A stretch of DNA of 33,943 bases from an uncultured Bacilli bacterium (GTDB lineage Bacteria; Bacillota_I; Bacilli_A; RF39; UBA660). How positions within the stretch are numbered: position 1 is the stretch's first letter; the number at the start of each line of letters is the position of its first letter. Below, one piece after another: positions 1,139 to 22,462 of the stretch. The stretch covers positions 1 through 33,943 of the forward strand of contig CALVSP010000008.1 of NCBI GenBank assembly GCA_944359065.1, read 5' to 3'. A model generated the notes under the pieces. That model searched no databases and was not told the DNA's origin. It was given only the letters and a program-made list of their open reading frames with translations. The position numbers and the translations under genes are program-made.

Positions 1139-1152
1139 ATTAAGTTACCTAA

Positions 1153-3204: not shown

Positions 3205-3312
3205 TAAAAAATTAGTACCATTATAGAAATACTTTTCAATTTTTATTTAATATATTGTTCATATTTTGGGTTTCGCATTTTACTTTCTTTGATTATTATA
3301 ATATTATTTGAA

Positions 3313-3339
3313 AACTTAAGGGCTTAAGTTCTTTTTTTT
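3313..3339 (+). terminator. Rho-independent terminator after the AbiE pair
   Basis: AACTTAA and TTAAGTT flank GGGC, and a run of eight T follows. It separates the AbiE pair from the small gene and recombinase downstream. Confidence 0.75.
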
Positions 3340-3374
3340 ATTTTATTAAATAAAATGAAGAAGGAGGGTTTATT

Positions 3375-3503
3375 TTGGAAAATATAATTAATAAATCTAT
3401 TGAAATAGAAATTAAAATAAAATTAATAGAGTATTTGAAACGAAATAAATTTATAAATGATGAAATGTACTCTTTTGTTATGAATAAGTTAATTAAAGTT
3501 TAA
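3375..3503 (+). CDS. Small SHOCT-like protein preceding recombinase 1
   Basis: This 42-residue frame starts with TTG behind a very strong AAGGAGGG (3361-3368). The core I-E-Y-L-K-R-N-K-F-I-N-D-E-M-Y...MNKLI follows the pattern of SHOCT-like short domains (helix, short turn, acidic residue, helix). It ends 17 nt before the recombinase start, so the two are surely co-transcribed. Small proteins in this place could be recombination directionality factors, but that is inference from position only. The second element has a comparably placed but dissimilar 38-residue frame. Confidence 0.6.
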   Translation: MENIINKSIEIEIKIKLIEYLKRNKFINDEMYSFVMNKLIKV

Positions 3504-3520
3504 GTAGGGAGGGAAGATAT

Positions 3521-5188
3521 ATGGATCTATATACAGTTAGGAATAATATAATGAAAGGAATACCACTTCAAGAATTAAATTTAAGAGTTTGTTTTTATGC
3601 TCGTGTATCTACTGAAAAAGATGAACAAATAAATTCTTTAAAAAATCAAATAACTTTCTTTAATGATTATATAAATAAGATTCCTAAATGGGAATTTGCA
3701 GGTTCATATATCGATGAAGGTATTAGTGGGACTAGAGTTTTTAAACGAGAAGAATTCTTAAAAATGATTAATGATGCTAAAAATGGTAAATTTGATCTAA
3801 TTTTAACCAAAGAAATATCAAGGTTTTCAAGAAGTACCTTAGATAGTATTAAATTTACCCAAGAATTACTTGCTAGTGGAGTTGGAGTATATTTTTTAAA
3901 TGATAATATTAATACTATATTGCCAGATTCAGAGTTAAGACTTACTATTATGGCAAGTGTTGCCCAAGACGAGGTGCGAAAATTATCAGAAAGAGTATCA
4001 TTTGGAATGAAAAGAAGTATTGATAATGGTAATGTTTTAGGATGCTCTAATATTTATGGTTATGAAAAAGATAATGGGAAATTAGTTATTAATGAAAAAG
4101 AAGCGGAAATGATTAAAATAATTTTTGATAGATATGCGAATACGAATGATGGTTTATCTAAAATATCTAAATATTTATATGAATTAAATTATAAAACCAA
4201 AACTGGTAAAAGATTAGATACAACGATAATTACTAGAATAATTGAAAATCCTAAATACAAAGGATATTATTGTGGTAATAAAACAAAAGTATTAGATTAT
4301 AGAACTAAAAAGAAAAAGAAATTAGATAAAGATAATTGGATTATCTATAAAGATTATGATAAAGTGCCTCCAATTGTATCAGAAGAATTATGGGAAAGAG
4401 CCAATATCAAATTAAGAAAAAGACAAAAAAGTTATTTAAATAAAATAGAAGATAAAACAATATTTCATAATCGTTATACTTATTCAGGAAAAATATATTG
4501 TGGTGTTCATAATGTTACTTATCACAGGAATAGTGCTGGTAAAAGAAAAAATAATCCTGTATGGGAATGTCAGGTTTATCGAAAAGAAAGCTTAAAAGGG
4601 TGTACTAATAATAGAGTATTTGAATATGAGTTAGATGAGTTATTCAAAAGTATTATATCGAAACTTTATCTTGATAAAAAAATAATCTTTGATAGCCTCA
4701 TTAAAGAATGCAAGAGTTATTTATTATCTAAAAATAGTGATAATGAAATAAAAGTTTTAGAATCTAAATGTGAAGTTATAAAAAATAAAAAAGACAAATT
4801 ATTAGAACTTGTAATGGATGGATACTTAGAAAATATTGAATACAAAAAACAAATAGATAATTTAAATTTAGATTTAAATGAATATTTAGATAAAATAGAC
4901 AATCTAAAAAATAATAAGTTAGATGAATACTTAATCGAAAAAGAAATAAATAGTATAAGAGAAAACTTAGAACATTCTATAGAAGATAATTTGTGCTTAA
5001 GTGATATATTTAATTCTTTAGTAGAAAAAATAATTGTTAATAAAGATGAAAATAATCCTAAAAAAATAAAATTAGATATTATTTTTAAAACTGGAACAAC
5101 ATTAAAAGCATCCAGTAATAATTTAGGAAAAAAGTATCATTTAGAGGAGTACCTCACAACAAATAACAGCTGTTTCAGCCGCAATTAA
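3521..5188 (+). CDS. Large serine recombinase (integrase of element 1)
   Basis: This 555-residue protein has an N-terminal resolvase catalytic domain (CFYARVST, nucleophile Ser30; E-I-S-R-F-S-R), a recombinase domain from about residue 170, a zinc-ribbon-like segment (YCGVHN...ECQVY...GCTNN, about 325-370) and a coiled coil near 400-480. Such enzymes cut attP and attB with a 2-base stagger and join them; reversal needs a directionality factor. The start has GGGAGGGAAG upstream. Unusually, the last ~12 codons lie beyond the inferred attR junction and are read from the interrupted PBP gene in another frame, so the C-terminus (…TTNNSCFSRN) would change when the element excises. Confidence 0.92.
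   Translation: MDLYTVRNNIMKGIPLQELNLRVCFYARVSTEKDEQINSLKNQITFFNDYINKIPKWEFAGSYIDEGISGTRVFKREEFLKMINDAKNGKFDLILTKEISRFSRSTLDSIKFTQELLASGVGVYFLNDNINTILPDSELRLTIMASVAQDEVRKLSERVSFGMKRSIDNGNVLGCSNIYGYEKDNGKLVINEKEAEMIKIIFDRYANTNDGLSKISKYLYELNYKTKTGKRLDTTIITRIIENPKYKGYYCGNKTKVLDYRTKKKKKLDKDNWIIYKDYDKVPPIVSEELWERANIKLRKRQKSYLNKIEDKTIFHNRYTYSGKIYCGVHNVTYHRNSAGKRKNNPVWECQVYRKESLKGCTNNRVFEYELDELFKSIISKLYLDKKIIFDSLIKECKSYLLSKNSDNEIKVLESKCEVIKNKKDKLLELVMDGYLENIEYKKQIDNLNLDLNEYLDKIDNLKNNKLDEYLIEKEINSIRENLEHSIEDNLCLSDIFNSLVEKIIVNKDENNPKKIKLDIIFKTGTTLKASSNNLGKKYHLEEYLTTNNSCFSRN
5136..5165 (+). other. Inferred attR of element 1
   Basis: PBP-like coding sequence begins at about 5151, in the frame that reads T-S-Q-Q-I-T-A-V. 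An imperfect palindrome, GAGG-AGTA-CCTC (5144-5155), sits on the boundary and may be the crossover centre. The exact core cannot be fixed because the left junction is outside the window. Confidence 0.5.
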
Positions 5189-5825
5189 TGGTGGTAATTT
5201 ATATACTCCTTATATCGTTAAAAATTTAAATGAACCAGAAACTAATTCAGTAGTAGTTGAAAATAAACCTAGTGTAACAAGAAAAGTAATAACTGAAAAT
5301 ACTAGTGCACAAGTAAGATATGCTTTAGAAAGTGTTGTTGCTAATGGAACTGGTAGAAATGCTTATATATCTAATTATCGAGTTGGTGGTAAAACAGGAA
5401 CTGCCCAAAAAGTAGAAGATGGTAAGTATTTGGTAGGTAATTACATAACATCTTTTATGGGATTTTTACCAGCGGATGATCCTGAAGTAGTTGTATATAT
5501 TGCTATCGATAATGCTAAAGGAGTAACACAATATGGTGGTACAATTGCAGCACCAATAGCTAAAAATGTTTTAAATGCCGCAATTTCTGCTTTAAATATC
5601 GAGCCAAGATATGATGGTATGACTAAAGAATATAATTATGGTGATAAAAGATATTATACAGTTCCAAATGTAACAGGAATGGAAACTAAAGAAGCAGTAT
5701 CTAATTTAAAAGAATTTAAAGTTGAATTTAGTGGTAGTGGTAGTAAAATAATTCATCAATCACCAAGTGAAGGAAGTTATTTAGCAGAAGGTGAAGTAAT
5801 AAGATTAATGTTAGGAGATGAATAA
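5151..5825 (+). pseudogene. Class B penicillin-binding protein (SpoVD/FtsI type), 3' fragment cut off by element 1
   Basis: The frame ending at 5825 is open from the junction and encodes about 224 residues: TSQQITAVSAAINGG (a conserved transpeptidase segment), then GGKTGTAQKV, the KTG active-site motif, and a C-terminal PASTA domain (YYTVPNVTGM…EGSYLAEGEVIRLML). The SxxK and SxN parts of the active site must lie beyond the left end of element 1. SpoVD and its relatives cross-link peptidoglycan made by a SEDS partner. The stop overlaps the mraY start (TAATG), as expected for an intact operon. No start codon with a ribosome binding site is seen for the fragment. Precise excision should restore the gene. 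Confidence 0.88.
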
Positions 5826-6811
5826 TGTTAACAAAAGTTGCTTTTGTAGTAATGTTAAGTTTTATTTTATCAATTGTCTTAGGTTTTTTAATCATTCCAT
5901 TTTTAAAAAAGAAAAAATTAGATCAAATATTAAATAGATATTTAGAAGAGACTCATAAGAAAAAAAGTGGGACACCGACTATGGGAGGAATAATTTTTAT
6001 AATTTCTACTATAGCAATTATAGTATTGTTATTAATATTAAATATAATAGAGTTAAATTATAGTTTAATAATAGTGTTATTTACATTTTTAAGTTATAGT
6101 TTAATTGGATTTATTGATGATTATTTAATAATAATTAAAAATAACAATAATGGTTTAAGTGAAAGTGCGAAATTCGTAATGCAGTTATTTGTTGCCGTTA
6201 TATTTTTCTATTTATTTATGAAGGCGGGTAATGAACCATTACTTTGGATTCATACTATTAATTTAAGACTAGATATTGGTTGGTTATATGGTTTGTTTAT
6301 ATTATTTGTTTTAGTAGCATCTAGCAATGCTGTTAACTTAACCGATGGATTAGATGGCTTAGCAGGCGGTCTATCAATAATTGCTTTTTTAACTTTTGGT
6401 ATTATTGCTTATGATACTGGCTGGTTAGAAGGATATGAAAGTGTTGCTTTATTTTGTTTTGCTTTAGTCGGTAGTATTTTAGGATTTTTAGTATTTAATA
6501 GTAATCCAGCTAAAATATTTATGGGTGATACTGGTTCTTTAGCATTAGGTGCAACATTAGGAAGTATTGCCATTATTACAAGACACGAATTATTGTTAGT
6601 TTTAATTGGTATTGTTTTCGTTATTGAAACATTAAGTTGTATAATTCAACGAACATATTATAAATTTACTAAAAAAAGATTATTTTTAATGACACCAATT
6701 CATCATTCATTTGAAAAAAAAGGTTGGGATGAACACGATATCGTAAAACTATTTTGGATAGTAGGGTTAATTGCTTCACTACTTGCTTTAACCTTTGGTG
6801 TTATAATTTAG
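5825..6811 (+). CDS. mraY: Phospho-N-acetylmuramoyl-pentapeptide-transferase
   Basis: MraY transfers phospho-MurNAc-pentapeptide from UDP to undecaprenyl phosphate, making lipid I at the membrane. The 328-residue protein is close to the family length and has about ten hydrophobic segments. Signature parts are present: T-P-T-M-G-G near 50, F-I-D-D-Y with Asp98/Asp99, N-L-T-D-G-L-D-G-L-A-G-G near 172, F-M-G-D-T-G-S, and the T-P-I-H-H-S-F-E-K-K-G loop near 283. The ATG overlaps the PBP stop by one base. In the usual spoVD-murE-mraY-murD-spoVE order murE and murD would flank it; here neither is next to it. With element 1 integrated it loses the normal upstream operon promoter, so its transcription may depend on the element. 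Confidence 0.97.
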   Translation: MLTKVAFVVMLSFILSIVLGFLIIPFLKKKKLDQILNRYLEETHKKKSGTPTMGGIIFIISTIAIIVLLLILNIIELNYSLIIVLFTFLSYSLIGFIDDYLIIIKNNNNGLSESAKFVMQLFVAVIFFYLFMKAGNEPLLWIHTINLRLDIGWLYGLFILFVLVASSNAVNLTDGLDGLAGGLSIIAFLTFGIIAYDTGWLEGYESVALFCFALVGSILGFLVFNSNPAKIFMGDTGSLALGATLGSIAIITRHELLLVLIGIVFVIETLSCIIQRTYYKFTKKRLFLMTPIHHSFEKKGWDEHDIVKLFWIVGLIASLLALTFGVII

Positions 6812-6856
6812 TTGAATAATTATTTAAAATATTATAAAATAATAATAGGTGAGAAA

Positions 6857-7717
6857 ATGATTGAAAAATATATACCTATTATTAATGAAATTGGTTTAAA
6901 ATATAATTATCCTGATAATATCAAACACTTATTGTATGTAATATTACCTGCTTTTATTATCAAATATAAAAAAGAACAATTTATTATCGATTGTTTAAAT
7001 AATATTCCAATTGTTATAACTGGTAAGGAAGATCCTAAAATACAAGCATTATATGTAAGTTATCCTTATTTAGATATTACTATTAAAACAAAAAAGGCGA
7101 TATATTTAAATAGATATAATAATATTCCCTTTTTACAATTATTAGATAATTTAATTCACGAACTAAACCACGCAATAAATTCTTATAAAAATGAAATCAT
7201 TATCGATAAAGATTATTTTTATTTAAGAACAGGTTTAACTAAAACTAAATATAGTTTAAAAGAAAAAGACATCGTTGCTAAAAATAAAAGTTATATTTTA
7301 GAAGAAATTATTAATTCTAAACAAACAGAAAATATAATAAATATAATTGCTAATATGGAAAGTGATAATGAAACAATAAAGAATACTATTTATGCTGTAA
7401 AAAATAGTATCAGAGATAATTATATATCGCCTGCTTATTTTAGTTTAAAATACTATTGTCAAAAATTATTAGATAATAAAACATTTTTATTAACTTTAGA
7501 GAATTTAAGAATCGATGGTAATATAGATGATATTGAAAAGTGGTTTAATGATATTTATGGTGATAATGGTTATCAAGAATTAATTGATACTTTATATGAA
7601 TTAAAAGAATTACAAACTAAAAAAGGAATATTTGTTAAAAATAAAATAAATAAATTATCTATTAAATTAATTAAAATAAGTGATAGATTTAATAAAAATT
7701 GTAATTTAAAAGAATGA
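6857..7717 (+). CDS. Putative HExxH metallopeptidase-like protein, unrecognised family
   Basis: This 286-residue protein is rich in Ile, Asn and Lys. It carries LLDNLIHELNHAINSY at about residues 95-110, giving HELNH (101-105), the zinc-binding HExxH motif. A possible third ligand lies in YILEEIINS (Glu149/150), about 45 residues later. There is no clear signal peptide or membrane helix, so it is probably cytosolic or peripheral. The ATG at 6857 is preferred over the TTG at 6812 because AGGTGAG stands just before it. It sits where murD is often found, between mraY and the SEDS gene, but shows no Mur-ligase motif. A role in wall or septum maturation is only suggested by position. Confidence 0.6.
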   Translation: MIEKYIPIINEIGLKYNYPDNIKHLLYVILPAFIIKYKKEQFIIDCLNNIPIVITGKEDPKIQALYVSYPYLDITIKTKKAIYLNRYNNIPFLQLLDNLIHELNHAINSYKNEIIIDKDYFYLRTGLTKTKYSLKEKDIVAKNKSYILEEIINSKQTENIINIIANMESDNETIKNTIYAVKNSIRDNYISPAYFSLKYYCQKLLDNKTFLLTLENLRIDGNIDDIEKWFNDIYGDNGYQELIDTLYELKELQTKKGIFVKNKINKLSIKLIKISDRFNKNCNLKE

Positions 7718-7760
7718 ATTATACTTTTTTGTTTTTCATAAAATTAATAGAGGGATAATT

Positions 7761-8777
7761 ATGAAAAAATGTAATTTAACTTTATTAATAAGTGTAATAA
7801 TAATAAGTATTTTTGGTGTTTTGATGATTTATTCAGCATCTTACATTTGGGCAGAATATAAATATGGTGATGCTTTAAAATATGTTAAAAATCAAGGACT
7901 ATTCTTAATAGTTGGTATTATATTAATGATGATAATAAGTAAAATAGATTATAAAATATATTTAAAAAAATCTAATTTAATTTTAATTAGTTGTCTAATT
8001 TTATTAATATTAGTTTTAATACCAGGTATTGGTACCGTTCGAAATGGAAGTCGAAGTTGGTTTGGGATAGGTTCATTCGGTATTCAACCTAGTGAATTTA
8101 CCAAGTTAGGACTAATGATATTTGTATCTAAGTATTTATCATATAATGAAAAAGCAACAAAATCTTTTAAAGGTATTTTACCTATTTTAGGGTTACTTTT
8201 ATTAATATTTGGACTTATTATGTTACAACCTGATTTTGGAACAGGTACTATTATTGTAATGTCTATAATTGGTTTGTTATTTGTAGGTGGAGTTGACTTT
8301 AAATATTTTATTAGATTAGGTATTGTAGGAGTAATAGGTGTAGTAGGTTTAATTTTAGCCGCTCCTTACAGACTTAGTCGAATATTATCATTTCTAAATC
8401 CGTGGAGTGATCCTTTAGGTAGTGGGTTTCAAATTATTCAAAGTTTGTATGCCATAGGTCCAGGGGGATTATTTGGTTTTGGTATAGGTAATTCAAGACA
8501 AAAGCACTTCTTTTTACCGGAACCTCAAACAGATTTTATATTTTCTATAATAAGTGAAGAACTAGGATTTTTAGGATGTTTAATAATTATAACTTTATTT
8601 GTTATTATTTGTTATAATGGATTTAAATCATCGCGTAATTGTAATGATTTATTTGGTAAATATTTATCGTTTGGTATTATATTTCAAATTGCTTTCCAAG
8701 CTTGTTTAAATTTGATGGTCGTAGTAGGATTAATACCAGTAACGGGGTATGCAAGAAAATGGGAGAAAATAGTATAA
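7761..8777 (+). pseudogene. ftsW: SEDS peptidoglycan glycosyltransferase (FtsW/SpoVE), 5' part interrupted by element 2
   Basis: The first 328 residues are a SEDS protein: early TM helix with L-M-I-Y-S-A-S, the segment R-S-W-F-G-I-G-S-F-G-I-Q-P-S-E-F-T-K, LQPDFGTG, and F-F-L-P-E-P-Q-T-D-F-I-F-S-I-I-S-E-E-L-G-F. The chain reaches V-G-L-I-P-V-T-G, where FtsW/SpoVE should continue with (V/I)xLPFxSYGG. Instead ten foreign residues and a stop follow. The missing end is at 19825-19916; joined, the protein is 358 residues, the usual size. SEDS proteins polymerise lipid II as partners of class B PBPs. The truncated form lacks the last helix and conserved motif and is probably inactive. ftsW versus spoVE cannot be decided from sequence alone. 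Confidence 0.93.
8736..8756 (+). other. attL of element 2
   Basis: SEDS codons end at CCAGTAACG and element sequence GGTATGCAAG follows, with GGGG at 8744-8747 shared with the right junction (19822-19825). The restored attB is GTAAC-GGGT-GTTAC, a perfect 5-base inverted repeat about a GG centre, which suits a serine integrase site with a 2-base GG crossover. Confidence 0.85.
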
Positions 8778-9153
8778 ATCGTAGAAATCCTTATAAATAA
8801 AGGGAAAACGAGATTTTACTTAATTGAAAAAGCACTTAAAAATGTCAAAATTAGAGAAAATCATTATTTTATGTTTTTTTTTACAAAAATATAACAACGA
8901 TACATTGTTGGTAAACACAAGAAAATTTATAACAGCTAATATTTTTAAAATAAAAATTTATGATACATTAAGAATAATAAGTAAAAAAATAACAATAAAC
9001 TATTTTTTTATTTTAATATATATAAGTTGACATTTAGTTAATCGTATGATACCATAGACAACAATTAAATTAGTTGAATAGATTCTGCAATAAAATTTGA
9101 TAAATTTAATTAAGTAAAAATAGTTATTCGTTTGTTTTTTATCAGGGGGAAAA
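8778..9153 (+). other. Gene-poor left arm of element 2 (376 nt)
   Basis: This stretch holds one open frame of 68 codons (8824-9030) that begins with TTG, has no ribosome binding site and resembles nothing; I do not call it a gene. A good promoter lies at 9027-9055. The rest is very AT-rich, with no clear repeat or hairpin. Confidence 0.5.
9027..9055 (+). promoter_or_regulatory. Promoter of the glycosyltransferase/radical SAM operon
   Basis: TTGACA (9027-9032) and TACCAT (9050-9055) are 17 bases apart, with TG one base before the -10 hexamer. The start codon of the first cargo gene is about 100 nt downstream. Confidence 0.6.
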
Positions 9154-10014
9154 ATGAAAAATTTTAGTATTATTGTTCCATCTCATAATGGTCAAAAATA
9201 TATTTCTAGATGTTTAAATTCAATTATGCAACAAACATATTCAAATTATGAAGTTATATTTATAAATGATAGTAGCACAGACTATACTTCAGATATTATT
9301 CGTTCTAACTTTAATTTTCCAAATATAAAATATTATGAAGTTTCATTTGAAGATATAAGTAAGGTGAGAAATTATGGGTTATCAAAAGTTAATGGCGATG
9401 CAATAATTTTTGTCGATGTTGATGATTGGATTGAAAAAAGTTTACTTGAGAAATTATCTATAGTTGACAACGAAAATGATATAATTCGATATCAAGGTAT
9501 TATGGTTGATAATGACAATAATATTTATGAAGAATATATTACAGATGAATTTTATAATTTTAATGGAATAGAAGTATTAAATAAGTTTGCAAGAGGGTTT
9601 GAAATATATAGCCCATCTTGGTTATATGCTTATGACTTCAGATTTTGGGAAAAAAATAATTTTAAGTTTCCAGTTGGAATGTTACAAGAAGATTTTGCAC
9701 TTACATCTTTAATTTTAAGTAAAGCAAAATGTGTTTCTAGTATTCCTTATATTGGATATTATTATTATAAAAGTCAAAACAGTATTATGAGAAATAATAA
9801 CTATGATAATCAAATAAAAAAAGCATATGATGTTTTGGTACACTGTGATAAATTTTATGAAAATATAATTTTAGGTGTACAAGATGAAACTATAAAAAAT
9901 AATTTAATTAAATATTATTTAACAGTAATTAGACATAAGTTAAATGTACTAAATAGTCCCGAAAAAGAATCTTATGAAAAACAATTAATATTAAGAGAAG
10001 AAAGGTGGAAGTAA
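9154..10014 (+). CDS. Glycosyltransferase family 2 protein
   Basis: This 286-residue protein has a GT-A fold signature: F-S-I-I-V-P-S-H-N-G at the N-terminus, F-I-N-D-S-S-T-D near residue 38, and I-F-V-D-V-D-D-W near 90, where DxD binds the metal and sugar nucleotide. Later FPVGMLQEDFAL (the E-D is typical of the acceptor/base region) and a C-terminal helical part follow. There is no membrane segment, so it acts in the cytosol or at the membrane face. AGGGGGA precedes the ATG. The radical SAM gene starts one base after its stop, so the pair is tightly coupled. Such enzymes normally build glycans or glycosylate small molecules; the acceptor here is unknown. Confidence 0.88.
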   Translation: MKNFSIIVPSHNGQKYISRCLNSIMQQTYSNYEVIFINDSSTDYTSDIIRSNFNFPNIKYYEVSFEDISKVRNYGLSKVNGDAIIFVDVDDWIEKSLLEKLSIVDNENDIIRYQGIMVDNDNNIYEEYITDEFYNFNGIEVLNKFARGFEIYSPSWLYAYDFRFWEKNNFKFPVGMLQEDFALTSLILSKAKCVSSIPYIGYYYYKSQNSIMRNNNYDNQIKKAYDVLVHCDKFYENIILGVQDETIKNNLIKYYLTVIRHKLNVLNSPEKESYEKQLILREERWK

Positions 10015-10015
10015 A

Positions 10016-11695: not shown

Positions 11696-11864
11696 TTAAT
11701 AAAGTATATAAAATGGCTTATTTTTCTGTAGAAAGTATTTTGAAAAAACAAAAAATATTTTTGGCTGATGATGAAATTTCATTTTTTCTCATTTATATTT
11801 TATGAAAGAGAATATTTGAATTAATTAAAGCTGATAAATCATAGTAAAATTTGTGGGAGGAATA

Positions 11865-12308
11865 ATGAAAAAATTACAAATAGGGATTAATGATAAAAAT
11901 TTAAAATATGATTTCCGTGAAATGTGTTTTGGAATTTATGTTAAAGATAAAAAAATATATTTAACTCAAAAAAAAGGAGAAATTTCATTAATAGGTGGCG
12001 GTAAAGAAATTGGTGAAACATTTCAAGAATGTTTATATAGAGAATTTTTAGAAGAAAGTGGTTGTAAGTTAAAAAAAATTAAACATTTTTGCTCAATAGA
12101 CTGTTTTTGGATTACTAGAAATAAAAAGTATATGGAATCACTAGCACATATTTTTTTAGTAGATATAGAAGATAATATAAATAAACCATTAGAAAAAGAA
12201 TCAGAATTAGTTATAATAGATATACATAATGCTTTAGACTATTTAGAATTACCTTATCAAAGAAAAGCATTGGAATTATATCTTGCTAAGTATGGAAATT
12301 TGCTATGA
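11865..12308 (+). CDS. NUDIX hydrolase
   Basis: This 147-residue protein has a complete NUDIX box, GGKEIGETFQECLYREFLEE followed by SG (Gx5Ex7RExxEExG), at about residues 45-67. The family cleaves nucleoside diphosphates linked to another group, such as ADP-ribose, sugar nucleotides or damaged dNTPs, using Mg2+ held by the REUxEE glutamates. The ATG at 11865 is chosen over the GTG at 11853 because GGGAGG (11855-11860) is then correctly spaced. Its last four bases (ATGA) are also the start of the next gene, so the two proteins are made together. That neighbour has ADP-ribosyltransferase-like motifs, which would fit an ADP-ribose-type substrate. Confidence 0.9.
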   Translation: MKKLQIGINDKNLKYDFREMCFGIYVKDKKIYLTQKKGEISLIGGGKEIGETFQECLYREFLEESGCKLKKIKHFCSIDCFWITRNKKYMESLAHIFLVDIEDNINKPLEKESELVIIDIHNALDYLELPYQRKALELYLAKYGNLL

Positions 12309-13567
12309 ATTTATATGATTTAATTTCTAAAATGATTACAGATGAATATAATGTTAGATTATCTCAAAAAGAATTTGATGTTATATGTCATCAATATCAA
12401 ATAAGTGCTAGTGAGTTGAAAAAATATGTTAGTATGATTAGTAAACATAAATATTTGAAAAAATTAGATATACAAGATGATATAAAAAGATATCATAGTT
12501 GTCGAGAAAATGATATGGCTTTTGTTTTTCAATTTGAAAAAATTTTAAATAATGAGAAAATTCAAGAAATTTTGCAATTGATTCAAAATAGAAATTTTAG
12601 CTTTGATTTAAGAAAAATAGGTATTAATGCCATTACTTGGGCAGACACACAATTATTTTTACAATCTTTACTTTTACAAAAAATGTATTGTTTTTTGATA
12701 ATGAATCAAAATGAAATTTACGATTATGAGTTTGTAGAAAACTATTTGGATAAAATTATAACCAACTGTAAAGTATCGGTAAATTTTGAAGATTTATTAT
12801 ATAGGTGCGATGATATTTTATTGAAAAATATAGTTTCAAAAGCAAATTTTAAAAAAGATGAATTTTTAACAATGATAAAGCAGAATTTTATAGATAAAGG
12901 ATATTGTTTTCATGGATTTAATAGTCAATTTGAAAGTCAAATTCTGAAATATGGACTTTCTGGTTCTTTAAATTGTTGTGATACATATGAAATGTTAAAA
13001 ATAGATAATATTTTTAGAAATTATAATATGAATGGTGTTTTTCAACAAAATTGGAGTTATCAACAAAATCCTAATTTTTTTACTACTGATAATTTTGGCG
13101 CTGCCTATTATTATTCTGTATTATCACCTGTTTTTATGTCAAGACTTGTTAGCAATGGAAATTATATGTCTAATGAAATTTTATTTGATAGAACAGCTTT
13201 TATTCAAAGAGATTTGAATGCTTGTATCAATAATATAAATGCATTGCTAATACAATATAATGTGCTACAAAATGATAGTGATTATATCAAGAAATACCTA
13301 AAGAATTATTTAGAATTTCTATTTAAAGATAAAGATAATTTAAAAATTGCTTTTTTTCCTCGCCATGATATAAATAGAGATTTTTCTGATAATTATGATA
13401 AGGCAACAATGATGCAAGGTGAATTATCAGTTGAAGAATTATTAAAAATTGCTTTAAAACCTTCATTTGAAATTGATAGACATCAAAATACAACATATGA
13501 TTCCAGTATTATAAGTTCAATTACTATTCCAAATTATGCAAAAAGTTTAATTAAAAAAAGAAATTAA
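12305..13567 (+). CDS. Unrecognised protein with ADP-ribosyltransferase-like motifs
   Basis: I do not recognise this 420-residue protein as a named family. Residues 1-195 are mainly helical. From ~198 the order K-G-Y-C-F-H-G-F (His203), L-K-Y-G-L, then P-N-F-F-T-T-D-N-F-G-A-A-Y-Y-Y (Tyr268-270) and Q-G-E-L-S-V-E-E-L-L (Gln371, Glu373) recalls the H–Y–[Q]xE layout of the ADP-ribosyltransferase fold (PARP, Tpt1/KptA and DarT relatives), including the 'HG…I…GL' and 'fTt…A..Y' spacing. There is no membrane segment. It overlaps the NUDIX stop by 4 bases, and its 3' end overlaps that of the convergent kinase gene by 4 bases. A toxin or effector using NAD is one reading; a non-enzymatic role cannot be excluded. 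Confidence 0.45.
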   Translation: MNLYDLISKMITDEYNVRLSQKEFDVICHQYQISASELKKYVSMISKHKYLKKLDIQDDIKRYHSCRENDMAFVFQFEKILNNEKIQEILQLIQNRNFSFDLRKIGINAITWADTQLFLQSLLLQKMYCFLIMNQNEIYDYEFVENYLDKIITNCKVSVNFEDLLYRCDDILLKNIVSKANFKKDEFLTMIKQNFIDKGYCFHGFNSQFESQILKYGLSGSLNCCDTYEMLKIDNIFRNYNMNGVFQQNWSYQQNPNFFTTDNFGAAYYYSVLSPVFMSRLVSNGNYMSNEILFDRTAFIQRDLNACINNINALLIQYNVLQNDSDYIKKYLKNYLEFLFKDKDNLKIAFFPRHDINRDFSDNYDKATMMQGELSVEELLKIALKPSFEIDRHQNTTYDSSIISSITIPNYAKSLIKKRN

Positions 13568-14055
13568 TATTTAATTAATTTCTTAACTTTTTCCAATGTT
13601 TGTTGTTCATTGTAATTGGCTGTATTAATTTTGTAAACTGGCATAAAATTACTTGCTTGCTCTAGTCTATAATCAAATTCTTCTAATAATGATTTATATA
13701 AATGTAACAATACTACTCTATCATTTAAATCATCCTTCCGTCTTTCCAATAGTAATTCTTGTGGTGCATATAAATATATAATACTAGAATTATTTCTAGT
13801 ATACAATTTAAGTAATTTTAAATAATTTTGTTCAGAAATTTTTGTTTTATTACTTAATATTTTTCCATAAACCATTACACTTATAAAAGAACGATCCATT
13901 ACTGAATTAATTGATGATTTATCAAAAGTGTCTACATATTTATAATAAAAATTTTTAAAATCATTGTTTGGAATTACTAATTGTTTTCCTTGTTTAGTCA
14001 AATTAGTTATTAAAGTTGTTTTTCCACAACCATCTAAACCTTCAACAATAATCAT
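13564..14055 (-). CDS. dTMP kinase-like/deoxynucleoside kinase-like P-loop protein
   Basis: This 163-residue protein begins M-I-I-V-E-G-L-D-G-C-G-K-T-T (Walker A, residues 5-13), like thymidylate kinases. M-D-R-S-F near residue 55 matches the DR(Y/S) motif of dTMP and deoxynucleoside kinases, and L-L-E-R-R-K-D-D-L-N-D-R is a plausible LID. It is shorter than bacterial Tmk (~205), so the substrate may differ. The ATG at 14055 is chosen because GGAAGCG lies just before it; an upstream in-frame ATG at 14088 lacks a site. It is the only minus-strand cargo gene, convergent with the ART-like gene and divergent from the phosphoesterase gene, with about 70 nt for both promoters. Confidence 0.75.
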   Translation of the reverse strand: MIIVEGLDGCGKTTLITNLTKQGKQLVIPNNDFKNFYYKYVDTFDKSSINSVMDRSFISVMVYGKILSNKTKISEQNYLKLLKLYTRNNSSIIYLYAPQELLLERRKDDLNDRVVLLHLYKSLLEEFDYRLEQASNFMPVYKINTANYNEQQTLEKVKKLIKY

Positions 14056-14126
14056 ATATATCGCTTCCTTGATGATATATATTAACATAATTTAAATAAA
14101 ATATCAACGTAAAAGAGGTGTATGTT

Positions 14127-14930
14127 ATGCAAGAAAAAATAGCATTGATATCAGATGTTCATGCTAATTTAGAAGCTTTAAAAGCAGTTCTTATGGATAT
14201 AAAGAAACATAATATAAAAATAATTTATTCTTTAGGTGATATTATCGGACTTGGTAATCGTCCTAGTGAATGTTTAAAGTTAATTATAGAAAATAATATT
14301 ATAAATATTCTAGGAAATGCTGAAGAATATGTAATATTTGGTGCTGATAGTTTTGATTATTTAAAAAAATATAATATTGCACGTTATTATAATGCTATAT
14401 GGACAAAAGAAAAATTAACAAGTGATCAAATTTGTGCGTTACAGAGAATGCCGCATTCAATAGATATTGAAATTGAAAATCAAAAGATTGCGTTGTGCCA
14501 TTTTCCTATTGATGTACGATATGATTATTCTGGTGTATGGAAATATAATGGTGAAGATGTTAGTTCTTTTTTTGAAACCAACACTCAAAAAGATATGAGG
14601 TTTTCTAATTATCAAATACCGCTTTTAATATCATCAAAGAATGATCCATTATTTGGTGGAAAAAGAATAGATGAATATAATTGTATAATTTATGGACATT
14701 ATCATTTTTTTAGAAAACATATAAAAAATAATATAATTTTTTATTCACTCAATGGAACTGGTGTAGCAATTGATAAACAAGCAATATATTATGTTTTAGA
14801 AAATGTTAATAATAGAATTATTCTTACAGAAAACAAAGTTGATTATGACTATAAAAAATTGCATTATGAATTAAATAATACTGATTATCCTAATAAAGAA
14901 ACATTTGAAAAATATATTAAAAAATTATGA
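14127..14930 (+). CDS. Metallophosphoesterase (ApaH/YfcE-like)
   Basis: This 267-residue protein has the calcineurin-like metal-binding motifs in order: I-S-D-V-H (DxH), L-G-D-I-I-G (GDxxG), L-G-N-A-E-E (in place of GNHD/E), L-C-H-F-P and I-Y-G-H-Y-H (GHxH). The Ala where the family usually has His is seen in some subfamilies. Members cleave phosphomonoesters, phosphodiesters or dinucleoside polyphosphates. The ATG at 14127 lies 8 nt after GAGG; an in-frame GTG at 14118 overlaps that site and is less likely. Its TGA stop is also the TG of an extended -10 promoter for the next gene. Confidence 0.85.
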   Translation: MQEKIALISDVHANLEALKAVLMDIKKHNIKIIYSLGDIIGLGNRPSECLKLIIENNIINILGNAEEYVIFGADSFDYLKKYNIARYYNAIWTKEKLTSDQICALQRMPHSIDIEIENQKIALCHFPIDVRYDYSGVWKYNGEDVSSFFETNTQKDMRFSNYQIPLLISSKNDPLFGGKRIDEYNCIIYGHYHFFRKHIKNNIIFYSLNGTGVAIDKQAIYYVLENVNNRIILTENKVDYDYKKLHYELNNTDYPNKETFEKYIKKL

Positions 14931-14936
14931 TATAAT
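14926..14936 (+). promoter_or_regulatory. Extended -10 promoter (TTATGATATAAT type)
   Basis: TATAAT at 14931-14936 is preceded by TGA, which is also the stop codon of the phosphoesterase gene. It would serve the hydrolase and the large gene after it. Confidence 0.5.
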
Positions 14937-14960
14937 TAATTATAGAAAAGAGGAGTAATT

Positions 14961-15713
14961 ATGGATGAAAAAGATATTGAAAAAGCAAAAAACGATTTAA
15001 GAGTAAAATTTAATTATTTAATCAACAATAAAATTAATACTTTTTCTGCTATACCTGAAGATAATATGAGTAAAATAATAATTTATTGTCATGGGTTAGG
15101 TAGTAACAAAACGTGGGCAACTAGATTTTATGATAATTTATTAAAAAATAAAATTGGTATTATTTCTTTTGATTTTCCTGGTCATGGAGAAGATAAAACA
15201 GATTTTTCACTTTTTACTTTGAATTTATGTATAAAATACCTGGAAGAAATGATTACATATGTAAAAACAAAGTATGATGTACCTATATATTTGTTTGGAT
15301 GTAGTTTTGGTGGTTTTGTAATTTTAAATAAATTAATAAAGAATAGTGAAAATATAGAAAAAACAATGTTAATGTGCCCAGCTATTAATTTTTGTGAGAT
15401 TATGGAAAATAAATCGGGAATATCAATTGATTATTTTAATACTAATGAATTTATGCCTTTGTATAATAATATTAAAATATATAAAGATGCTTATCTTCAG
15501 TTTAAAAATGGCGATAATGTTGTTAAAAATTATGATTTTCAAAATATTTCAATAATTCATGGGACATCTGATAAAACTGTTCTTTATAAAGATATTAGTG
15601 ATTTTTGTAAGAAGAATAATTTGAAATTAACAACTATTGAAGATGGAAAACATGAACTATATAATTATGATAATGAAATTGTTAATTTTTTATTGAAAGA
15701 TATTAATGAATAA
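14961..15713 (+). CDS. Alpha/beta hydrolase
   Basis: This 250-residue protein shows I-I-Y-C-H-G-L-G-S near residue 40 (oxyanion-hole segment), S-F-D-F-P-G-H-G-E-D, the nucleophile elbow G-C-S-F-G-G with Ser115, G-T-S-D-K-T with a candidate Asp near 203, and D-G-K-H-E-L with His231. The triad is therefore complete, as in thioesterase/esterase-like members. There is no signal peptide. AGAGGAG precedes the ATG. It is followed after 27 nt by the large CitC-like gene, so the two are probably one transcript. The substrate is unknown; it is not closely similar to the element 1 hydrolase. Confidence 0.8.
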   Translation: MDEKDIEKAKNDLRVKFNYLINNKINTFSAIPEDNMSKIIIYCHGLGSNKTWATRFYDNLLKNKIGIISFDFPGHGEDKTDFSLFTLNLCIKYLEEMITYVKTKYDVPIYLFGCSFGGFVILNKLIKNSENIEKTMLMCPAINFCEIMENKSGISIDYFNTNEFMPLYNNIKIYKDAYLQFKNGDNVVKNYDFQNISIIHGTSDKTVLYKDISDFCKKNNLKLTTIEDGKHELYNYDNEIVNFLLKDINE

Positions 15714-15740
15714 TATTTAAAATTGAGGGGGGAAATGTTA

Positions 15741-17807
15741 ATGAGTAAAGTAATTCATATAAGTGAATCTGATGTTAATTTAAAACATAAATTAATTAAT
15801 ATATTTTTACAAAATCAAGAATCAATTGTAGCTTTAGATAATGAGCAATTCATAACTTACGATTCTTTTTTAAATAATATTCGTAATGGCAGTGATTTAA
15901 AAATTACATTTGATGAATTGACTATATATACAAAAGAAAAAAATGATAAAGATAATAGTGATTGGAAGAATACATCAATTGATTTAACTAGGTGGAAATG
16001 TTTATATGCTAATAATGATAAAATTATTAATTATTTAAGAAGCAGAAAACCGAAAAAAGTTTTTGTTAGGGGTGGATTATCACAAGAATTATTTAATTAC
16101 ATAAATGTTTATGGTAATGAATTCTCTACTTCTATTATTCCTATTGATTATGATAATTATTTAAGTTCTCTTTTAGAAGAAAATTCATTATTAATAGATA
16201 CAGATTTATTTTCAATGGATTTAAAACAAGAGATAAATAGACATTGTAGACTTGATAAAGAATTATCTTCTAGTATATTAAATATAAATGAATTATGTAA
16301 TGAATCAGAAATATATTATTTTGTTAATAGTTTTTTAAAAGATAAATCTTTTGAAACTTATGTGTTTGAATTTCCAGATAATGACCAGTTCACAGAATTG
16401 ACATTCACAGAACAGTTGAGAATGAAAGCCAAAGTTAATTATATATATTACCTTAGTAATTGTATGAATGATCCTGAAATAAGAAATTTAGTAGAAATAG
16501 TTATGGGTGATTTATTTACTGAAGATTATATAGACAAGAAGAATTTATCTCCCGGAACTATATTAAAAAATGGTATTTGTAGATTGGCAGATTCTAATAA
16601 TGATTTTTGTAAAAGTATTAATGGAATTAGATATACTACAGATAAAATTTATGATTATGCATTTGATATTAATATATTTGGTCCTTGTATGGTATATGGT
16701 GCTTTAGTAGATGATAAACATACTATAGCAAGTTATTTACAGAGAAAAGTTAATATTGATAATATGGATTATTCAGTTAATAATTACGGCTTAAGAGCCA
16801 TGGAATTACCTGAACAAATAAGGATTGCTGACAATGTAAATATAAAAAATGGTGATAAAATGATTTTTATTATTTCAACAGAAGAAAAACAAAAACTTGC
16901 TAAATTAGGTTTTACTGATGTAGAAACTTTATTGCCTATTTTTAATAATAGTACTTTACACAATTATTTTTTTGATAAACCAGCGCATTGTAATCATGTT
17001 GCAAATGGATATATTGCTGATTATATATATGATAAGATTAAAAAGAACTTATTAGCGATTAATCCTCAAAATAAAGAAAGTGCAATCCTTATAAAAAGAA
17101 ATCAAAAAAGAAATGTATTTTCAAATAATAAATTTATTGATGAATATTTGTCTATGTTAAAAAGCTTAGATATACCAGATGGTCCAAATGGTGCAATATT
17201 AATGAATTGTAATCCATTTACTTATGGACATTATAATTTAATAAAATATGCTTCTGAACAAGTAGAAAAATTATTTGTTATAGTAGTTCAAGATGATAAA
17301 TCTGTATTTAAGTTTAATGATAGATTTAAAATGGTACAGAATGGTTGCAAAGATTTTTCTAATGTTATAGTTATTCCAAGTGGAAAAATATTTGGTTCAT
17401 CAATGATTTTTCCAGAGTACTTTAATAGAGAAGAAAAAACTGATGTTACTATAGATGTATCACTAGATAGAGAAATATTTACTGATTATATAGCCCCTAT
17501 ATTAAATGTTAAAAAGAGATTTATTGGAGAAGAAAAAAATGATATTATTACTGCATCATATAATAGAGAATTAAAAAAAAATTTACCTTTATATGGTATT
17601 GAAGTTATTGAGATACCTAGATTTACTGATCAAAATGGTCAAGCCATTAGTGCAAAAGTTGTAAGAAATGCTCTAGAAAATAATGATTGGGATACAATTT
17701 ATCAATTAGTTCCACCAACTACAATAAATGTGTTACAAAATTATAGTAATGATATCAGAGAAGGTAAAGTTAAAGAAAAAAAACTTCAAAAAAATATTTT
17801 TGATTAA
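15741..17807 (+). CDS. Large protein with C-terminal citrate-lyase-ligase-like nucleotidyltransferase domain
   Basis: In this 688-residue protein, residues ~480-680 resemble the C-terminal domain of [citrate lyase] ligase CitC: A-I-L-M-N-C-N-P-F-T-Y-G-H-Y-N-L-I carries the (H/T)xGH nucleotide-binding motif, followed by V-V-Q-D-D and R-F-K-M-V. CitC transfers acetyl to the lyase cofactor through acetyl-AMP. Residues ~280-390 (F-G-P-C-M-V-Y-G…V-N-N-Y-G-L-R) recall SGNH-like folds, with low certainty. The N-terminal 250 residues are unrecognised. No citrate lyase genes are nearby, so another acyl or nucleotidyl acceptor is likely. The ATG at 15741 is 9 nt after AGGGGGG; the ATG at 15735 is too close to it. 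Confidence 0.65.
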   Translation: MSKVIHISESDVNLKHKLINIFLQNQESIVALDNEQFITYDSFLNNIRNGSDLKITFDELTIYTKEKNDKDNSDWKNTSIDLTRWKCLYANNDKIINYLRSRKPKKVFVRGGLSQELFNYINVYGNEFSTSIIPIDYDNYLSSLLEENSLLIDTDLFSMDLKQEINRHCRLDKELSSSILNINELCNESEIYYFVNSFLKDKSFETYVFEFPDNDQFTELTFTEQLRMKAKVNYIYYLSNCMNDPEIRNLVEIVMGDLFTEDYIDKKNLSPGTILKNGICRLADSNNDFCKSINGIRYTTDKIYDYAFDINIFGPCMVYGALVDDKHTIASYLQRKVNIDNMDYSVNNYGLRAMELPEQIRIADNVNIKNGDKMIFIISTEEKQKLAKLGFTDVETLLPIFNNSTLHNYFFDKPAHCNHVANGYIADYIYDKIKKNLLAINPQNKESAILIKRNQKRNVFSNNKFIDEYLSMLKSLDIPDGPNGAILMNCNPFTYGHYNLIKYASEQVEKLFVIVVQDDKSVFKFNDRFKMVQNGCKDFSNVIVIPSGKIFGSSMIFPEYFNREEKTDVTIDVSLDREIFTDYIAPILNVKKRFIGEEKNDIITASYNRELKKNLPLYGIEVIEIPRFTDQNGQAISAKVVRNALENNDWDTIYQLVPPTTINVLQNYSNDIREGKVKEKKLQKNIFD

Positions 17808-17820
17808 ACTATAAATAGTA

Positions 17821-17849
17821 TACCAAAAGAATATTGAACTAATTTGGTA
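17821..17849. repeat. Inverted repeat TACCAAA/TTTGGTA after the large cargo gene
   Basis: The seven-base arms at 17821-17827 and 17843-17849 are exact complements with a 15-base loop. The same TACCAAA string recurs in the direct repeats at the right end of the element (19774-19780 and 19805-19811), so it may be a binding site rather than a terminator. Confidence 0.45.
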
Positions 17850-17860
17850 AGTTAGAATAA

Positions 17861-17889
17861 AAAGAGTCTAAATTTTTAGATTCTTTTTT
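17861..17889 (+). terminator. Rho-independent terminator of the cargo operon
   Basis: AAAGAGTCTAAA pairs with TTTAGATTCTTT (one G·U pair) across a two-base gap, and a T run follows. It isolates the cargo from the recombinase unit. Confidence 0.75.
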
Positions 17890-17937
17890 TGCATATTTTT
17901 TTTATTATAAAATAAGTTTTATCGAGGGGAAAATAAT

Positions 17938-18054
17938 ATGGTAAACAAACTTAAAGATGATTTGCATTTTAATATTGAATATAATTTTAATGAAGAAGGT
18001 AAAAATTTAATTGAAATAATTGAAGAATTATTTTTATTAAATATAAAAAATTGA
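17938..18054 (+). CDS. Small acidic protein upstream of recombinase 2
   Basis: A 38-residue frame with a good GAGGGG site ahead of ATG. The sequence is acidic in the second half (N-E-E-G-K-N-L-I-E-I-I-E-E-L-F) and looks like one amphipathic helix. It ends about 60 nt before the promoter and repeats that precede recombinase 2, and it follows the cargo terminator directly. Position suggests a role in integrase control or excision, but no family is recognised. It may also be non-functional. Confidence 0.5.
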   Translation: MVNKLKDDLHFNIEYNFNEEGKNLIEIIEELFLLNIKN

Positions 18055-18075
18055 AATTTATAAAATAAGCTAGAA

Positions 18076-18175
18076 AGTTATGAGATTTTGGCAAAAGAAA
18101 TATTAAAAGGATGGTATAATTTATATAGCACAGAACTCTCATAACTAAACGAAGGAGGATAGAAGAGTTATGAGA
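18076..18175. repeat. Three copies of a 10-base element around the recombinase 2 promoter and start codon
   Basis: AGTTATGAGA stands at 18076-18085 and again at 18166-18175, where it contains the ATG start codon (18170-18172). Its exact reverse complement TCTCATAACT is at 18137-18146. The second and third copies can pair in the mRNA as a 10-bp stem, with GAAGGAGG in the 19-nt loop and the start codon in the stem. The first and second copies flank the promoter, as paired operators would. Confidence 0.75.
18112..18120 (+). promoter_or_regulatory. Extended -10 promoter of recombinase 2 (TGGTATAAT)
   Basis: TATAAT at 18115-18120 with TG one base before. TTGGCA at 18088-18093 is a possible -35, but the 21-base spacing is too long, so the promoter probably relies on its TG. 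It lies between the first two copies of the 10-base repeat. Confidence 0.6.
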
Positions 18176-19753
18176 AAATATAAGTGTGGAAGATATTTAA
18201 GATTATCAAAAGAAGATGAATTAAAAAAAGATGAAAGTTCATCAATTGCTAGTCAAAGAATGATTATAGAATCTTTTGCTAAATTTCAAGGTTTGGAAGT
18301 TATAAAAGAATATATCGATGATGGTTTTTCAGGAGGAAACTTTGATAGACCTGGATTTAAAGAAATGATAAAAGACATAGAAGATGGTGTCATAAATTGT
18401 GTAATAACAAAAGATTTATCTCGTTTAGGTCGTGAACTATATCAAACAGGTAGATATATAGAAGAATATTTTATTGATAACAATATTAGGTATATTGCAA
18501 TTAATGATGGGTATGATTCTCTAGAGGGAGATAATATGTTGTCTATGCGTTTAACATTTAATGATTTTACATTAAGAGATGTATCAAAAAAGGTTAAATC
18601 TTCTCTTACTGCAAAACAAAAAAATGGAGAGTATATAGGAACTTATCCTAAATATGGATATTTAAAAGATCCTGTTGACCATCATAAATTAATAATTGAT
18701 CCTGTTGCATCACTTGTGGTTAAAAGAATGTTTGAAATGGCATCTCAAGGAAATAGCTGTTATAAAATAGCATCAGTACTAACTGAAGAAAAAATACCAA
18801 TTCCAATAGTCTATAAGAAAGAATCTAGAGGAGCTTTAATTACGGATAATGATGGATTTGGAATATGGCGTCCGCAAACAGTTAGAGATATATTAACAAG
18901 TGAAATGTATATAGGAAATATGGTACAAAATACTTATAATAAGGTAAGATATAATTCAAAAAGAATAAGGGCTACAAAAAAAGAAGAATATATAATTGTA
19001 GAAGGAACGCATGAACCCATTATTGATAAGGAAACATTTGAACTTGTTGGTAAATTAATTTCTTCAAAAAGTTTGCGAAAGCAAAGAGAACAAAAAGAAA
19101 AATATTTGTTTACGGGTTTATTAAAATGTAAAGAATGTGGTCATAATATAAGTATTTTGAAGAAAAAATGTAAAAAAAGTAATTCACATTATACTCAATG
19201 TAATGAGTATAGTAAAAAAGGAAAATATGGTGTTTGTAAAATCCATCGTGTAAATTATAATTTATTAGAGGAAGATTTAATTAAAATAATTAATGAAATA
19301 TGTGATTCTTATTTGAAAGAATATAATAATAAAAAACTTACTTATGATGCTAATAAATTATTAGAATCAGAGATAACAAAAATTCAAAAACAAATTGATA
19401 TTTTAACTAAAGAAATAAGTAAATATGATACTTTGATCGAGCAAATTTATATTGATAAAGTAGGTAATAAAATACCAGAAAAAACTTTTGATAGTTTGTT
19501 AAATAATTATAATGAAAAATTAGAAATATCTTCTGCCAAGAAAAAAGAGTTGTTAGAACAAAAAGAAAAAGTTGAGTCAACAATTAAGAGATTTGATTTT
19601 GAAAGTTGTAAAACTGCAGTAAGATCATTTCTTAAAACTAAAAAACCAAGTAGAGAATTGATAGTTAATTTAGTAGAAAAAGTAGAAATTGATAATGATA
19701 ATAATATTAAATTGTACTTTAAGTTTCCAGAATTAACATCATATTTAAGGTGA
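18170..19753 (+). CDS. Large serine recombinase, TndX-type (integrase of element 2)
   Basis: This 527-residue protein opens with the TndX-like Y-L-R-L-S-K-E-D (nucleophile Ser13), then S-S-S-I-A-S-Q-R, D-D-G-F-S-G, and V-I-T-K-D-L-S-R-L-G-R-E. A recombinase domain spans about 150-270. A zinc ribbon (K-C-K-E-C-G-H…C-N-E-Y…C-K-I-H, about 320-365) and a coiled coil (about 390-470) follow. It belongs to a different branch from the element 1 enzyme, so the two insertions are independent. It stops 70 nt before the right junction, so its C-terminus is element-encoded. GAAGGAGG precedes the ATG, which lies within a 10-base repeat that can form a hairpin. Confidence 0.93.
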   Translation: MRKYKCGRYLRLSKEDELKKDESSSIASQRMIIESFAKFQGLEVIKEYIDDGFSGGNFDRPGFKEMIKDIEDGVINCVITKDLSRLGRELYQTGRYIEEYFIDNNIRYIAINDGYDSLEGDNMLSMRLTFNDFTLRDVSKKVKSSLTAKQKNGEYIGTYPKYGYLKDPVDHHKLIIDPVASLVVKRMFEMASQGNSCYKIASVLTEEKIPIPIVYKKESRGALITDNDGFGIWRPQTVRDILTSEMYIGNMVQNTYNKVRYNSKRIRATKKEEYIIVEGTHEPIIDKETFELVGKLISSKSLRKQREQKEKYLFTGLLKCKECGHNISILKKKCKKSNSHYTQCNEYSKKGKYGVCKIHRVNYNLLEEDLIKIINEICDSYLKEYNNKKLTYDANKLLESEITKIQKQIDILTKEISKYDTLIEQIYIDKVGNKIPEKTFDSLLNNYNEKLEISSAKKKELLEQKEKVESTIKRFDFESCKTAVRSFLKTKKPSRELIVNLVEKVEIDNDNNIKLYFKFPELTSYLR

Positions 19754-19770
19754 TTTTTTTTAAAACTTTT

Positions 19771-19821
19771 GTTTACCAAAAAACTTGCAACCATCTTTTT
19801 AGTTTACCAAAAAACTTGTAA
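19771..19821 (+). repeat. Two 20-base direct repeats in the right arm of element 2
   Basis: GTTTACCAAAAAACTTGCAA (19771-19790) and a second copy differing by one base (TTGTAA at its end; 19802-19821) lie 31 bases apart. The second copy runs straight into the attR core. Roughly three helical turns of spacing suits binding of one protein on one face of the DNA, such as recombinase accessory sites. Confidence 0.8.
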
Positions 19822-19834
19822 GGGGTGTTACACT
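19814..19834 (+). other. attR of element 2
   Basis: Element sequence CTTGTAAGG meets SEDS sequence GGTGTTACACTACC; GGGG at 19822-19825 matches the left junction. The rebuilt attP has arms CTTGTAAG and GGTATGCAAG around GG, sharing CTTG(T/C)A as an imperfect inverted repeat. Confidence 0.85.
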
Positions 19835-19916
19835 ACCTTTTTTATCTTATGGTGGATCTAGTTTATTAATAACTTTGTGTAGTATTGGTATTGTATTAAA
19901 TATTAGTAGAAAATAA
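19825..19916 (+). pseudogene. ftsW: SEDS (ftsW/spoVE) 3' fragment
   Basis: It encodes the last 29 residues of the SEDS protein beginning [12 protein letters not shown], the most conserved motif of FtsW/RodA/SpoVE, then the last helix and S-R-K. There is no start codon. It continues codon 329 of the 5' part (7761-8745) exactly in frame. Its stop region is duplicated in tandem (19902-19935). Confidence 0.95.
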
Positions 19917-22434: not shown

Positions 22435-22462
22435 AAAAATATGGGAAACCATATTTTTTTTT
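22434..22462. terminator. Bidirectional terminator between gmk and the collagen-like gene
   Basis: AAAAAATATGG and CCATATTTTTT flank a GAAA tetraloop, with T runs in both directions. It serves both convergent genes and overlaps the collagen gene stop. Confidence 0.85.

Follow-up and report, generated by a model that had tools for sequence, protein, structure and literature searches.

Sporulation genes that are split by a mobile element have been described in several spore formers. In Bacillus subtilis and Clostridioides difficile, sigK is interrupted by skin, a serine-recombinase element with precise att junctions. The intervening elements named in the accessible part of PMC10747680 lie in sigK, spsM, spoVFB, gerE and yabG; spoVD, spoVE, spoIVA and dacB are not named there. 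Here we describe a stretch of 33,943 nucleotides (contig CALVSP010000008.1 of assembly GCA_944359065.1, called the window below) in which two serine-recombinase elements, element 1 and element 2, interrupt a class B penicillin-binding protein (PBP) gene and a nearby SEDS gene. Our analysis supports the view that this pair is the sporulation wall synthase SpoVD/SpoVE. The source genome (G000; other genomes have G-codes, contigs C-codes and loci L-codes) belongs to Candidatus Faecisoma, a genus of uncultured gut Bacilli that NCBI places in Mycoplasmatota incertae sedis and that we take to be a member of order RF39.

The elements resemble skin in that a serine-recombinase element splits a sporulation gene at precise att junctions. 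They differ from it in their target genes and in that a genome, and even one gene, can hold several of them; excision, moreover, is something we infer here. As far as the available text of PMC5595907 goes, gin in gerE of Bacillus cereus has non-phage-like cargo, a serine recombinase and a small extra factor (GirX), all of which have a counterpart or a candidate counterpart here. However, gin comprises 28.6 kb with three recombinases in one gene, whereas element 2 has a single recombinase in 11.1 kb. SPbeta in spsM, vfbin in spoVFB and yin in yabG also split a sporulation gene, which their excision restores, but in the accessible accounts they are prophage-like and single. ICEBs1, which according to the available part of PMC3715440 inserts at secondary sites including spoVD in laboratory B. 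subtilis without excising there, is a different matter. Our searches, whose scope took in few subscription papers, found no report of a split spoVD, spoVE, spoIVA or dacB. In Anabaena heterocysts several DNA elements are removed in a terminal cell type. The XisF model of the Anabaena fdxN element matches both window recombinases, well below its cut-off, although development, phylum and genes are all different there. The kind of element is known; the novelty lies in its targets, in its stacking within a single gene and a single enzyme pair, in the codons of catalytic motifs as landing sites, and in the spread through a family.

The two interrupted genes and their elements are arranged in the window as follows:

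1-5158, plus strand: right part of element 1, at spoVD site B; the window begins inside the element, whose left end and attL lie on contig C1
3361-3502, plus strand: region just before the element 1 recombinase gene, with a small open reading frame (ORF; TTG start, about 42 aa), a candidate directionality factor
3521-5188, plus strand: large serine recombinase of element 1 (clade I), with Resolvase, Recombinase and Zn_ribbon_recom domains
5156-5160, plus strand: attR core of element 1, ACAAC, common to the attL on C1 (compared with the intact spoVD of G017)
5157-5825, plus strand: C-terminal piece of spoVD, residues 415-636 and stop, without a start codon or promoter of its own
7761-8747, plus strand: N-terminal piece of spoVE, codons 1-329; the frame continues into element 2 up to 8777
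8748-19826, plus strand: element 2, 11.1 kb, inserted in spoVE; its att core, GG(G), falls within the codon for Gly of PVTG
18170-19753, plus strand: clade II large serine recombinase of element 2, containing Resolvase and Recombinase domains
19827-19916, plus strand: C-terminal piece of spoVE, the last 29 codons (19827-19913, ending SRK) and the stop (19914-19916)

Across the genus, spoVD is split near profile positions 295 (site A), 348 (site D) and 413 (site B). Against an intact reference, site A falls at K294 of STFK, site D in the SCN motif (348-350) and site B at position 415, between TPIQ and the following Q. In class B PBPs the motifs SxxK (here STFK) and SxN (here SCN) are catalytic. 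The source genome has its spoVD in three pieces, with junctions at the STFK codons and after TPIQ: C1:21163-22020 (residues 1-294, by tblastn), C1:740-1114 (residues 292-415) and 5157-5822 of the window (residues 415-636 of 636), where the piece overlaps the 3' end of the element 1 recombinase. About 20 kb, with a third recombinase inside, separates the two pieces on C1. The cargo of element 1 includes an ABC permease, an alpha/beta hydrolase and an AbiEi-like antitoxin (AbiEi_4) with its partner (1760-3204).

In spoVE the junction lies between PVTG and VTLPF, and the two pieces match the Pfam model FTSW_RODA_SPOVE at positions 4-324 and 322-353 of 356. Element 2 carries genes for a glycosyltransferase, a radical SAM protein, a NUDIX protein, a metallophosphatase, a hydrolase and a citrate-lyase-ligase-like protein. 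Joining the pieces at the core reproduces the reading frame of intact orthologues, both at site B (ACAAC) and at the spoVE site as compared with intact genomes.

The first-pass annotation had proposed that element 1 cuts the PBP gene and element 2 the SEDS gene, with integrases from different branches. Both junctions could be located and recur across the genus and family, and the two recombinases, only 20% identical, belong to different clades. It had also proposed a lock made of two elements. Both genes are indeed interrupted, but the count was understated: in the source genome spoVD contains two elements and spoVE one, all three with Resolvase and Recombinase domains over cut-off (as in five elements elsewhere in the family), and there is a sign of a third spoVD element in a fraction of the population. 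Another recombinase of the site-D type lies on contig C65, which ends exactly at the site-D junction, where C1 is uninterrupted. The sample may have held cells with and without the site-D element; a mixture of strains is equally possible.

That the pair might be spoVD and spoVE had been offered as a possibility and has gained support. The intact PBP of G017 scores 736.5 bits with the spoVD equivalog TIGR02214 (cut-off 688), a cut-off that the source-genome gene in its pieces stays below. For the intact SEDS protein of G017, SpoVE (TIGR02615) is the best of all models, 3 bits short of its cut-off (445.9 vs 448.8); the protein also passes the ftsW model (399.9 over 337.5). Taken with its place beside spoVD and mraY, a function like that of SpoVE fits best. 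The gene order in the window is spoVD-mraY-spoVE, as in Bacillus. The neighbouring genes are:

5825-6811, plus strand: mraY, flanked by spoVD and spoVE, named by reading the sequence
6812-7717, plus strand: conserved gene of unknown function, without a Pfam match
22461-23324, minus strand: BclA-like collagen-repeat gene near spoVE, whole in the window; a relative is split in G005

We also looked for a second intact set of the ftsW/ftsI type. The source genome has two other SEDS genes (best models ftsW and rodA) and two further class B PBP genes (best models PBP2X and PBP2B), each in one piece and each below cut-off. Each of the 18 genomes of the genus set, metagenome bins that are 68-94% complete, has a whole PBP2X-like and a whole PBP2B-like gene. 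The FtsW-like gene is whole in 16 (it runs off a contig in another and was not found in the last) and the RodA-like gene in 17 (not found in the remaining one), as judged with a 329-residue query; G010 has an additional, unassigned SEDS frame of 185 aa. These whole paralogues speak for tolerance of the insertions rather than for a choice of target, because an insertion in an essential gene could not survive.

The sporulation genes that we looked for support a host with spo0A, sigK, sigG and spoIVA. All 18 genus genomes have Spo0A_C, as does a single one of the 14 control genomes, that of B. subtilis; the Spo0A of the source genome is truncated by a contig end and falls 0.1 bit under its cut-off. 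SigK is over its cut-off, and another sigma factor fits SigG best, 4.5 bits short. SpoIVA, its identity confirmed by models, is present in 17 of 18 genomes (by family search whole in 11, in pieces in six and not found in one). Two apparent further splits were rejected: the pieces of spo0A in G000 overlap at two contig ends, an assembly break, and a short sigma-factor frame belongs to an additional, broken copy of sigK that accompanies a whole one. This N-terminal copy is a 115-aa frame in which FSYKKGTR is followed by YVAK at the end, presumably the skin site. It lies about 1.8 kb from the whole sigK, with two zinc-ribbon genes between (L126 9566-12443, G000:C10; L129 6655-9533, G008:C3), a layout that suggests a skin insertion made good by another copy.

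The insertions are anything but rare. A spoVE orthologue (at least 72% identity) is present in 16 of the 18 genus genomes and split in nine of the 15 that are callable, always at the same codon; in G006 the gene stops at a contig end and was not called. Seven genomes share one attL type (G000, G004, G009, G010, G014, G015, G016) and two a second (G001, G011); the recombinase that goes with this second type in G001 shares 50% identity with the element 2 enzyme. The gene is intact in six (G002, G003, G007, G008, G013, G017). Both halves and the element lie on a single contig in G000, G009, G014 and G015. Cargo varies among carriers, while attL and recombinase stay alike.

For spoVD the corresponding numbers are four full-length genes, 13 split ones and one (G002) broken at contig ends, which was not scored as split. 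In G005 and G010 the piece ends with the contig at site B, 10 and 0 bases beyond it; in the other 11 split genomes it continues into other sequence at at least one junction. All three junctions, A, D and B, are present in G015, spread over three contigs. Outside the genus, among 63 of 80 loci examined (a set that includes the genus itself), the spoVE site is split in three (L198, L201 and, less surely, L212) and site B of spoVD in one (L199). In the family (88 genomes), spoVD is full length in 48 (46 over the cut-off, two just under) and broken at A, D or B in at least 18 genomes of 17 genera, including G000, some of them at contig ends. All 12 family loci examined at the sequence level have their junction at A, D or B; they come from 11 genomes, with G057, G062, G066, G097 and G038 not among them. 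Both halves lie on one contig in G036 and G052, and a recombinase with Resolvase and Recombinase domains abuts all five inspected junctions (G036, G052, G061, G064, G067). Since the same junctions recur across species of the genus and other genera of the family, the interruptions are not due to chance.

Other genes are hit as well. Flanks were fetched for 97 of the 102 Pfam Recombinase rows in the genus and compared with a target list built from fragments spotted by eye, so that the counts are not an unbiased enrichment. In 32 of the 97 rows a fragment of a listed target begins about 90 bases or less from the stop codon of the recombinase gene: spoVD in eight, spoVE in six, spoIVA in four, an amidase/LysM gene in four, a dacB-like gene in three, a dacF-like gene in two, and BclA-like, cotJC-like, Ca-type ATPase, DUF5655 and ABC ATPase genes in one each. 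Five rows lie at a contig end and two have no open frame; three further cases lie farther from the recombinase (G000:C33, G005:C66, G000:C1). The dacB-like and dacF-like pieces have a Peptidase_S11 domain and were named by reading, as were the next genes, spmA, with a Gate domain, and spmB, without a domain match. The cotJC-like gene is so named, tentatively, from its Mn_catalase domain. Besides spoVD and spoVE, four more genes that are sporulation genes or likely to be so are hit. BclA-like collagen-repeat genes adjoin recombinases in G005 (L270, L275), and in L167 (G013:C12) a PMCA-type Ca P-type ATPase is split by a clade II recombinase.

The recombinases fall into three clades. Clade I (36-52% identity) is found at spoVD A, B and D, in the dacB-like gene, in the dacF-like gene at SxN, at spoIVA site 2 and in the DUF5655 gene. 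Clade II is found at both spoVE types, spoIVA site 1, the LysM, Ca-type ATPase and BclA-like genes and the amidase, and clade III in the cotJC-like gene, on the KTG side of the dacF-like gene, in the ABC gene and in two ICE-like elements. Clade I is 19-25% identical to three members of clade II. A small ORF of 36-80 aa precedes seven clade I recombinases; these ORFs, which show only weak similarity, are candidate directionality factors.

Do the split genes still matter to their hosts? The ratio omega of nonsynonymous (dN) to synonymous (dS) divergence is 0.02-0.17 for the C-terminal pieces of spoVD in all pairs of 12 genomes, split and unsplit, 0.02-0.12 for the N-terminal pieces against their nearest neighbours, and 0 to 0.27 for the short middle segments. 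No stop occurs in the aligned pieces of 12 of the 13 split genomes, none of which has a full copy. These values indicate that the spoVD pieces are under purifying selection. Between G008 and G009, each of which has the split at B, dS is 0.20 for the recombinase and, for the piece, 0.30 with a dN of 0.006, as expected if the insertion predates the separation of the two genomes. Substitution counts for the C-terminal piece of spoVE were discarded, as the piece is too short and path averaging inflates the nonsynonymous counts.

G017 provides a natural control, with a full spoVD beside a redundant copy split at D and B. The redundant copy has a stop in its N-terminal piece and, in the D-B piece, NPWFV and ESATT, two substitutions at otherwise invariant places; judged by these changes, it has decayed. 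Its layout (L046 6913-15229, G017:C4, and L303), with the cargo of element 1 but no recombinase between, is the same arrangement as that of sigK.

We therefore favour, with a probability of roughly 0.72, the explanation that these are intervening elements of the skin/SPbeta/gin kind, stacked on cortex genes and excised during sporulation. The recombinases would have inserted the elements at conserved codons of genes needed only for sporulation, namely STFK, SCN and TPIQ of SpoVD and the PVTG-VTLPF boundary of SpoVE. During growth a whole SpoVD/SpoVE pair could not be made, which would cost little because growth can rely on the FtsW-like and RodA-like SEDS proteins and the other PBPs. In sporulating cells, and there probably in the mother cell, the recombinase and a directionality factor, for which the small ORF is a candidate, would recombine attL with attR, release the element as a circle and rejoin the gene, so that the cortex synthase could be made. 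The element would persist in the spore chromosome because the mother cell dies. Several lines of evidence lead us to favour excision during sporulation: the identity of spoVD and spoVE, the spore-former genes, and the use of the same junction codons in many species and genera by unrelated recombinases; the frame restored on joining, the whole paralogues, the low omega, the absence of stops and the G008-G009 divergences; and the decay of the redundant G017 copy, the other sporulation genes hit and the mixed state of site D in G000.

A number of observations weigh against this explanation. A restored spoVE junction, which the first-pass annotation had suggested searching for in reads or related genomes, was not found in the source-genome assembly with up to one mismatch. 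The exact attP of element 2 was not found in the 18 genus genomes or in viral contigs, nor was an element 1-type attP in viral contigs. By-eye inspection, without motif statistics, recognised no sporulation promoter upstream of the recombinases. The targets seem to go beyond sporulation genes (ABC ATPase, Ca-type ATPase, DUF5655 gene), and 58 of the 97 recombinase rows match no gene on the target list. G010 (L321, G010:C112) has no full spoVD, and its N-terminal part has decayed to a remnant that carries a stop and an internal deletion. The omega of the redundant N-terminal segment of G017, 0.07-0.08, falls within the range of the others. Finally, among G000, G009, G014 and G015 the dS of the element 2 recombinase is 0.09-0.13, whereas that of host spoVE is 0.36-0.70 in five of six pairs (0.12 in G009-G015), so that element 2 moves between species and has done so recently. 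Whole frames at spoVE may hence just be young. Element 1 also moves between species, since between G000 and G013 recombinase dS (0.24) is below host dS (0.79-0.89).

One could argue from these points that only survivorship is at work: ordinary elements at conserved motifs are seen in genes that growth can spare, their carriers do not sporulate, and fast turnover keeps the genes looking fresh. The recent movement of element 2, the non-sporulation targets, the decayed spoVD of G010 and assemblies without an excised junction would all fit. However, such hosts would hardly keep spo0A in 18 of 18 genomes while spoVD is split in 13, nor would 12 split genomes be free of stops. Selection on orphan pieces over the separation of G008 and G009, provided that the insertion is older, and the decay of the redundant copy in G017 also speak against survivorship, which we consider unlikely.

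Less likely again is excision at a low rate and at random times, as in phase variation or bet hedging, with few cells able to sporulate and no developmental timing. It would agree with the mixed state of site D in G000 and with yin of C. botulinum, which according to the accessible part of PMC10747680 some of the cells have excised at any given time. Two attP-type junctions could also be taken in its favour. One is formed by the joined ends of another site-B element in G008:C20 (L174), the other by the cotJC element of G004:C1 (L268, L269), where two copies of one recombinase lie 36 kb apart. Neither is decisive, because tandem copies explain them as well as circles do; a terminal overlap that would make G008:C20 a circle was not found. 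Two or three independent random events in one cell would, however, be rare. As to these two contigs themselves, G008:C20 carries sugar and glycosyltransferase genes (named by reading), perhaps for spore-surface glycans, and in G004:C1 one recombinase copy abuts a cotJC-like fragment and the other a palindromic attP-like sequence.

That the split genes are plain decaying pseudogenes is very improbable: the G010 remnant and the failure to find whole spoVE and spoVD in most genus genomes point that way, but open frames, low omega and precise att junctions do not. An artefact of assembly or binning, suggested by incomplete metagenome bins and several junctions at contig ends, is the least probable of all, given that halves share a contig for spoVE in four genomes and for spoVD in G036 and G052 and that independent assemblies yield the same junction.

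A wider picture suggests itself, to which we give even odds. DNA elimination in the mother cell might be stacked and family-wide: to make a cortex, a cell that is bound to die would have to complete several precise excisions, much as if bacteria had a germ line and a soma. Unrelated elements would have spread over sporulation genes, with conserved motifs providing the codons on which they land (SxxK and SxN in penicillin-binding enzymes, PVTG in the SEDS protein).

In this genus the elements split the two members of an enzyme pair, one of them in as many as three places, together with several other sporulation genes. A survey, in its accessible part, scored order RF39 as poor in or lacking spoVD and spmB (PMC10868615), and this may be explained by annotation that misses split genes. 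The elements supply many serine recombinases with mapped att sites, and developmental genome editing in uncultured bacteria becomes directly testable.

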